From assembly GCA_018333515.1 (NCBI GenBank), contig JAGXSZ010000033.1, forward strand, positions 1 through 61,480: DNA of 61,480 bases, given 5' to 3'. This document shows, one piece after another, positions 19,688 to 21,547 of the stretch (positions are counted from its first letter, which is position 1; each line of letters opens with the position of its first letter). The position numbers and the translations under genes are program-made. The notes beneath the pieces were generated by a model. It was not told the origin of the DNA. It saw only the letters and a list, made by a program, of their open reading frames with translations, and searched no databases. Origin of the DNA: Actinomycetota bacterium (GTDB lineage Bacteria > Actinomycetota > Aquicultoria > Aquicultorales > Aquicultoraceae).

Positions 19688-20068
19688 ATGAACCAACCAG
19701 AAAAGCGCGCTCACATACAGATAAACCTCGGCAGCATCGATGGTTTTCCGCTCGTAACATTGGATGGCGAGTGCGATGCCTTCACGGCGCCGTTCATTCA
19801 CGGCGCGGTCGGCGCCCTCATCGACGCCGGTTATACCGGAATAATCATCGACATCACCGACCTGCGATATATGGACGGGGCCGGATTCGAGGCGCTCGAT
19901 AGTTGTTGCACGAAAATTAAAGCGGTCGACGGCATGCTTCTCATAGTAAATCCCGGAAAGAACGTCGAGAATATCTACGAAATGTTGCGGGAGAAAGAGA
20001 GCTGTGAGATAGAGCGGGATGTCGAGAGCGCGCTTGCAAGATTAAGGGAGACCAAGTGCCGAAAATAA
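19688..20068 (+). CDS. STAS-domain protein (anti-sigma factor antagonist fold), no phosphorylatable serine
   Basis: 126 residues. STAS fold as in SpoIIAA: FPLVTLDGECDAFTAPFI, YTGIIIDITDLRYMDGAGF, LLIVNPGKNVENIYEML. The position phosphorylated in SpoIIAA/RsbV (D-S-S-G or D-S-A-G) reads D-G-A-G, so control by a kinase/phosphatase pair at this residue is not possible. The SpoIIE-type phosphatase at 26.9 kb is a candidate neighbour in such a pathway, but not for this site. Confidence 0.87.
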   Translation: MNQPEKRAHIQINLGSIDGFPLVTLDGECDAFTAPFIHGAVGALIDAGYTGIIIDITDLRYMDGAGFEALDSCCTKIKAVDGMLLIVNPGKNVENIYEMLREKESCEIERDVESALARLRETKCRK

Positions 20069-20080
20069 ACAATGGAAAAT

Positions 20081-20115
20081 AAATAATGGGCACGACCACA
20101 TCGTGCCCATTATTT
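20081..20115. terminator. Strong bidirectional hairpin terminator
   Basis: Stem AAATAATGGGCACG / CGTGCCCATTATTT with a short loop. It ends the STAS gene on one strand and the DsrE-like gene (stop at 20160) on the other, which also supports the longer DsrE-like reading. Confidence 0.88.
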
Positions 20116-20159
20116 ACCGCGTATCGGCCCCGGACATCCGGCGCCCTCAACGACCAACT

Positions 20160-20651
20160 TTAGATAAACCAGTTGATCTGCGAATCTAATGCTTCCGAGA
20201 TAGCTTTAGAAGCGCCCGCCGGCTCTCCCATTCCATCTATCAGGTCTTCACGCTTTAATCCAAAAGCGTCCATGGTCATTTGTCACGGGATGAACTCTAC
20301 GTCGGATAAGAGAGCCATTTCGATAAGCTCGTCGAGGCTAGCGACCCTTTCATGTTTGAATATCTTCTTCATCATCCAAGTGCCCATTCCGCCCATGTTC
20401 AACCTGGATATCTTAAGCTTGTCTGTGCCGCCTTTGCGCATTACCGCGAGCATCTTTGTCATCAAACTCTTGCCCGTAATGCCCTTTTTGTTCTTTTTGA
20501 ACGCCAATAGGCCCCAGAACGTGACGAAGACCGTCACCTTTACATCATAGGCCGCCGCGGTTGTGGCAAGAATTAATTGCGGATAAACTTTGTCTAGATC
20601 GTCGCTCCATGCGATAATGGTAGCTTTTTTGGGTTTTTCGGCTTCGCTCAC
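20160..20651 (-). CDS. DsrE/DsrF-family protein, predicted selenoprotein (UGA = Sec at residue 123)
   Basis: 163 residues when UGA at 20283-20285 is read as selenocysteine. The first 122 residues are a DsrE-like fold (ATIIAWSDDLDKVYPQLILA, VTVFVTFWGLLAF, GGMGTWMMKKIFKHE). The next residues are D-V-E-F-I-P-U-Q-M-T-M-D-A-F-G, then a further 36 codons ending in TAA. In relatives of this family the tract reads IPCQM(T/S)MD, so UGA sits exactly at the conserved cysteine, and the continuation (GLKREDLIDG...INWFI) also matches the family end. GTG start with AAGGAGG. A hairpin fits a bacterial SECIS just after the UGA. The ordinary alternative, a truncated pseudogene, would not explain the conserved tail. 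Confidence 0.82.
20250..20282 (-). promoter_or_regulatory. Candidate bacterial SECIS element
   Basis: Counting from the base after UGA, bases +14 to +20 (ACGCTTT) pair perfectly with +27 to +33 (AAAGCGT) around a six-base loop TGGATT containing GG. Bacterial SECIS hairpins lie right behind the UGA and carry G residues at the tip for SelB; this position and loop fit. Confidence 0.65.
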
Positions 20652-20806
20652 GTTGCCTCCTTAATACATTACATTATTCACGCGCGCTCAAATCGGAAAA
20701 TCATCGTATCGCGCGCGCATAGTGTATCTATTACCATTTGTCGGGTAGCTCGCGGTGAAAGATAATACCATACGGGGTATATTATATAACAATCCACAAC
20801 GAATAG

Positions 20807-21361
20807 CTAGTATTGTTCTGCTTTCGTCACACCGAAATCAGCCGGGGTATACAGTACCTCTAGATTATAGCCTTTGCCCCGTATTATCTCGCTGCCGCCC
20901 TGCTCGCGGTCGACCAGACAGACGACTTTTAAGACCCGGTGCCCCTCGGCTTCGACAGCCTCTATCGCCTCGACTACCGAGCCGCCTTTGGTTATCACAT
21001 CGTCGACAATGACGACGCTCGAGTTCGGCCGGATGGGTCCTTCTATCCGCTTCATCATACCGTGAGACTTCATGCCCTTCCTGACCAAAAATGCCGATAC
21101 CGGTCTCCCCTTTTCGTAACTGCGCATAGAGACCGCGGTCGCGATAGGGTCGGCGCCGAGTGTAAGTCCGCCGACCGCGTCGGCGTCTTCGAGCATATCG
21201 GAGAGTACCTCCCCGATTAAAAAAGCGCCCTTGGCATCGAGCGTGACCTTCCGGCAGTCTATATAATAATTGCTCTTTTCGCCCGACGAGAGCGTGACCT
21301 CACCAATTACGACCGCTTTCTCCTTCAAATAATCCCGTAGTTCGTCTTTGTAGCCGCTCAT
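20807..21361 (-). CDS. pyrE: Orotate phosphoribosyltransferase
   Basis: 184 residues. Joins orotate to PRPP in pyrimidine synthesis. The PRPP loop VVIVDDVITKGGS is near residue 115, and GLTLGADPIATAV and LVRKGMKSHG are typical. ATG 21361 is chosen for GGAGGG upstream; the frame remains open for 37 more codons without conserved sequence. Confidence 0.94.
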   Translation of the reverse strand: MSGYKDELRDYLKEKAVVIGEVTLSSGEKSNYYIDCRKVTLDAKGAFLIGEVLSDMLEDADAVGGLTLGADPIATAVSMRSYEKGRPVSAFLVRKGMKSHGMMKRIEGPIRPNSSVVIVDDVITKGGSVVEAIEAVEAEGHRVLKVVCLVDREQGGSEIIRGKGYNLEVLYTPADFGVTKAEQY

Positions 21362-21547
21362 CAAGTCCCTCCTATTTTTTACTTCGAACAGTGTAGCACA
21401 AATATCGCCTGCTATCACTTCGATAATCCGGCGGCGCGGCGCGCACGTCGCCGACATTATGCTACGATACACAGAACACGTCTAAGATGTAGAATCATAA
21501 GACGCGGGTCGCGAAAGTGATATCGGCTCGCTCGAAGGAGGCGACAA

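Follow-up and report, generated by a model that had tools for sequence, protein, structure and literature searches.

The question raised by this locus is whether a UGA codon inside a gene of the DsrE superfamily is a stop signal or a codon for selenocysteine (Sec) and, in the latter case, which chemistry a selenol would serve in such a protein. The window (the whole stretch of 61,480 nucleotides that was analysed) corresponds to contig 33 of a draft genome of 2.33 Mb with a completeness rating of 100%. The original prediction had described an in-frame UGA, a 40-codon extension to a TAA, a family tract and a 163-residue product. All of these are present, on the minus strand, which had not been stated.

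The interrupted reading frame

The features of the gene are as follows.

20160..20651, minus strand: coding sequence of a predicted DsrE2-type selenoprotein, 163 aa with U123 (translation with TGA read as U, PF13686 match)
20651-20649 and 20162-20160, minus strand: GTG start and TAA stop of this coding sequence
20283..20285, minus strand: in-frame UGA (predicted Sec123) at the site of the family's only invariant Cys (translation, orthologue alignment)
20250..20269, minus strand: putative bacterial SECIS element, a hairpin of 7 bp with the loop UGGAUU, downstream of the UGA (+14 to +33)
20656..20660, minus strand: ribosome-binding site GGAGG, read from the sequence, four bases upstream of the GTG

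The TGA at 20285-20283 is reached after 122 codons, and 40 more open codons follow before the TAA. Simple gene callers truncate the protein at 122 residues, right before its active residue, as had been foreseen; this is a concrete annotation error. The plus strand across 20160-20651 is full of stops, and a GGAGG likewise lies 5' of the orthologues displayed in the alignment. In translation, the tract around U123 reads F-I-P-U-Q-M-T-M-D. The protein has no Cys at all, and U123 would be its sole chalcogen nucleophile. In a profile search, residues 8-162 match PF13686 (DrsE_2) at 8.7e-51 with 172.4 bits, against a gathering cut-off of 25. The score rises from 118 bits for the truncated form to 172 bits with the UGA read through, and the alignment then runs to the end of the profile.

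UGA and Cys forms in related genomes

Ten further genomes from the same taxonomic family were searched for orthologues, and seven have one. TGA stands at the same codon in G003 (same genus, 94% identity) and G007 (same family, 80%), and TGC in the other five (G004, G006, G008, G009 and G010; 77-81% identity). An alignment with DsrE-like families, proposed earlier as a check, places Cys in the homologues exactly at the UGA position. In an alignment of 30 homologues from the phylum, no Cys other than that at position 123 is invariant. For 396 Actinomycetota genomes, PF13686 matches were listed, and an internal stop occurs in just three of them, namely the genes of the window, G003 and G007. The pairing of UGA and Cys across independent genomes exceeds chance. 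It also provides natural Sec/Cys pairs at one locus, including a within-genus pair (G007 versus G009 and G010). No orthologue was found at 1e-5 in the sister genome G002 (100% complete), so the gene seems dispensable.

The frame behind the UGA is under purifying selection. Between the window and G003, dN is 0.032 versus a dS of 0.23 behind the UGA; between the window and G007, pN is 0.105 versus a pS of 0.94. A stop or pseudogene does not fit this selection.

Two genes flank the coding sequence in the window.

20807..21472, minus strand: pyrE-like phosphoribosyltransferase, conserved upstream neighbour (Pfam, synteny)
19688..20068, plus strand: STAS-domain protein, downstream neighbour kept in most relatives (Pfam, synteny)

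Sec and Cys forms share this neighbourhood, with pyrE adjoining in the window, G003, G007, G006, G009 and G010. For G008 and G004, the contig stops short of the expected pyrE, and the STAS side is unchanged. An FKBP/SlyD-like gene lies 3' of dsrE2 in relatives outside the genus (L070-L075) and is missing from the window's genus (20068-20160 in the window).

In the DsrE2 protein tree, UGA appears at two separate spots. One gain with losses is possible, as are two gains; the hairpin codons shared by the UGA genes (see below) favour a common origin. A search for Sec forms outside the phylum used the pattern [FLIMV][AP]UQM..M[DE], which divergent motifs would escape. In the scan of GTDB r220, where the genome of the window and those close to it may be absent by design, 28 matches were obtained, and the only genuine one was G003's contig, recorded there as coming from an uncultured 'Actinomycetota bacterium'. 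The same scan of IMG/VR gave three matches, and translation in the matching frame showed that no DsrE2 gene was among them.

The hairpin behind the UGA

The original prediction had pointed to a SECIS-like hairpin. The structure is there at +14 to +33, and its sequence is ACGCUUU-UGGAUU-AAAGCGU, with a stem of 7 bp, a 6-nt loop and GG at loop positions 2-3. The distance from the UGA to the loop is 20 nt and the energy -8.1 kcal/mol. The bSECIS model describes a loop of 3-9 nt, a stem of 4-16 bp and a G in the first two loop positions, with 16-37 nt to the UGA and an MFE <= -7.5 (PMC13188914). The window hairpin satisfies all of these terms (7 bp, 6 nt, G at loop position 2, 20 nt, -8.1). The hairpin of G007, at -6.7 kcal/mol, misses the energy threshold of -7.5. 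Taken alone, however, the hairpin is weak evidence because a SECIS-like hairpin of at least 7 bp stands behind 11.5% of the 1514 TGA triplets in the window. As stand-alone proof of Sec it was rejected for the same reason.

Comparison across genomes gives a better signal than the presence of the hairpin. All three UGA genes (window, G003 and G007) have the same hairpin codons from +6 to +10, the only run of at least five identical codons among them (hypergeometric P 0.0011, given the overall synonymous divergence). In G007, both partners of the second stem pair have changed, C-G having become U-A. As for the Cys orthologues, the stem is kept in G010 and G009 (loci L016 and L017), and one or two hairpin pairs are lost in G008, G006 and G004. 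The Cys orthologues of the family thus have the same neighbourhood as the window gene and differ from it in carrying TGC instead of TGA and, in three of five cases, in having lost hairpin pairs.

Selenocysteine machinery and other UGA genes

The absence of Sec machinery had been named as a finding that would count against a selenoprotein. On the contrary, contig 23 of the genome carries selD, selA, selB and tRNA-Sec in a row, in one cluster. SelA was recognised at 1.2e-160, tRNA-Sec with 76.4 bits and SelB by its domains. The selD gene (G000:C23, locus L010 11506-12543, minus strand) has an in-frame UGA of its own (...TKSGUAAKMGPGDL...), and SelD scores above the NCBIfam cut-off once this UGA is read through. 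Ordinary callers begin selD at a downstream ATG, and the active residue is lost.

Moreover, a type III sulfide:quinone reductase (SQR) gene (G000:C30, locus L090 9733-10968, minus strand) contains an in-frame UGA within a HATU motif. Its score of 611.5 bits exceeds the cut-off of 525 set for the NCBIfam selenoprotein subtype (NF049943), and UGA-type SQR relatives occur in most genomes of the family. The standard gene call stops this SQR at 333 residues. On the same contig (locus L090 7122-19901), dsrEFH/tusDCB, tusA, aprBA and HdrA-like (Qmo-type) genes are clustered, with the Sec-SQR close by. The Sec cluster and the UGA-bearing selD and SQR genes indicate, independently of the DsrE2-type gene, that the organism decodes UGA as Sec.

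In G009, selA, tRNA-Sec and selD gave no matches. An origin of its Cys form through loss of Sec decoding was considered and rejected, as a UGA-type SQR is still there (83% identity). A missing contig is the simpler and likelier reading since the sel genes sit together in a single cluster elsewhere.

Is the UGA a selenocysteine codon?

The UGA at residue 123 very probably directs Sec insertion. This reading is supported by the UGA/Cys pairing, the purifying selection behind the UGA and the complete Sec machinery. SelA, SelB and tRNA-Sec would insert Sec at the UGA, directed by the hairpin just downstream. What speaks against it is that the hairpin is nothing exceptional for a TGA here, that two Cys orthologues retain it and that its G007 counterpart falls short of the energy threshold.

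UGA is a normal stop in this organism, and TGA-terminated ORFs are common in the window. A genuine stop would leave a truncated protein of 122 residues or mark a recent pseudogene. This is very unlikely because the same UGA recurs in three genomes whose proteins are as little as 80% identical, the 40 codons under purifying selection match the family to its C-terminus, there is no other disruption in the gene and the genome holds Sec machinery. Read-through by a near-cognate tRNA (Trp, Cys or Arg), giving a low level of full-length product without selenium, would have the same appearance in the sequence, and the hairpin is not unusual. Such read-through is nevertheless very unlikely, as the UGA coincides exactly with the position of the invariant Cys, and the genome possesses a Sec operon as well as at least two other UGA genes from known Sec families (SelD and SQR). 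As for a sequencing or assembly error that turned TGC or TGT into TGA, the window offers only one read-out of the codon. The possibility of TGC or TGT in reads, raised by the original prediction, is nevertheless refuted in practice by the same TGA in G003 and G007, and the chance of such an error is negligible.

Structure and family placement

An AlphaFold2 model of the protein was obtained with a pLDDT of 89. The solved structures most similar to it are 3pnx (Z 22.4, 156 residues, 1.8 A) and 2qs7 (Z 18.0); next come other folds of the DsrE superfamily, such as DsrE of DsrEFH (2hy5, Z 12.0) and TusBCD (2d1p, Z 11.9). In sequence alignments, U123 falls on the Cys of 3pnx and 2qs7; a weak alignment also pairs it with the Cys in the TusD/DsrE that this genome encodes. 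By this computed placement, U123 sits at the position of the DsrE active-site cysteine.

The label "DsrE family" given originally holds at the level of the superfamily and can be refined to PF13686, the DsrE2 branch. The PF02635 score (29.2 against a cut-off of 22.7 bits) is far below that for PF13686. The NCBIfam equivalog for the sulfur carrier DsrE2 (NF047629) gave 92.3 bits, below its cut-off of 210. Several known proteins are close without being equivalent. The Cys-containing DsrE2 proteins Swol_2425 (3pnx) and SSO1126 (DsrE2B, 2qs7) share the fold, have a similar length and an active-site tract that aligns to U123, but they have Cys where the window protein would have Sec. DsrE2A possesses two strictly conserved cysteines (PMC4175335), whereas the window protein has none besides the predicted Sec. 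Classical DsrE2 genes also have a neighbourhood of their own, which the window gene lacks. The PF02635 DsrE-like UxxC selenoprotein of Desulfovibrio vulgaris and the Sargasso Sea belongs to the same superfamily, with Sec at the presumed active-site Cys. By its description, it is set apart from the window protein, which belongs to another Pfam family and has UQMT, with no second Cys.

Likely function

Among the proteins encoded in the genome are DsrEFH/TusBCD, TusA, AprAB and HdrA-like (Qmo-type) flavoproteins, and dsrA was found in all eight family genomes tested, that of the window included. With dsrA, aprAB, tusA and dsrEFH, the gene content points to dissimilatory sulfur metabolism, and the organism is, as predicted from its genes, a sulfur-cycling bacterium, be it a reducer, a disproportionator or an oxidiser. 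In Metallosphaera, the equivalent Cys of DsrE3A carries thiosulfonate and passes it to TusA (PMC4175335). The DsrE2-type protein is likely a sulfane-sulfur carrier or reductase acting through its selenol. The Sec123 selenolate would be the nucleophile that takes up sulfane sulfur (or thiosulfonate or polysulfide) as Se-S-R. Sec123 may then hand the sulfur on to a partner thiol (TusA, DsrEFH or DsrC, for example) or be reduced by it, which would resolve the selenosulfide. Such a partner would be needed because the protein has no other Cys to resolve the intermediate, so internal resolution is impossible.

A role as sulfur carrier in particular is held with slightly better than even confidence. 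A DsrE2B from Metallosphaera was unreactive towards every sulfur compound tried (PMC4175335), which makes such a role uncertain for the whole DsrE2 group. This inertness would also suit a selenoprotein that acts as a thiol/peroxide-type redox enzyme or binds a metal(loid) instead of carrying sulfur, and redox enzymes are believed to make up the majority of selenoproteins (PMC13188914). The surroundings of the gene point the same way. Around it lie pyrE, STAS and cytochrome c assembly genes, and linkage to tusA, rhodanese, hdr or dsr genes was not found at the locus; tusA, dsrEFH and dsrA lie elsewhere in the genome. The DsrE superfamily fold, the active-site position of U123 and the abundance of sulfur-trafficking genes in the genome argue against a redox or metal(loid)-binding function, which is the less probable of the two and still deserves serious consideration.

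Novelty and significance

A 2026 catalogue lists 119 prokaryotic selenoprotein (sub)families with a single DsrE-like one, the PF02635 UxxC protein, and holds no PF13686 member (PMC13188914). No PF13686 or DsrE2 protein was found described as a selenoprotein in the literature searched, outside which lie two recent papers on new selenoproteins. The protein is likely to represent a new selenoprotein family or subfamily. The fuller proposal, a new selenoprotein family of the DsrE2 branch in which the selenol is the sole chalcogen nucleophile of a sulfur carrier, is put forward tentatively, with confidence somewhat short of even.

The decoding of the DsrE2-type UGA gene is ordinary, and the interest lies in the sulfur biochemistry. 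A Sec form would be added to a widespread sulfur-trafficking family. If the proposal is true, selenium would serve both sulfide oxidation (Sec-SQR) and sulfane-sulfur relay (Sec-DsrE2) in these bacteria, via protein-bound Se-S intermediates. As the protein has no other Cys, the contribution of selenium to sulfur transfer is directly testable. The Sec-type III SQR of the same genome is likewise a UGA-encoded selenoprotein of sulfur metabolism, but it is an unrelated flavoprotein with an HxxU motif and has already been catalogued (PMC13188914). An SQR homologue in G006 (C199:677-1873) contains two in-frame TGA codons, perhaps reflecting a double Sec or read-through beyond the end of the gene.
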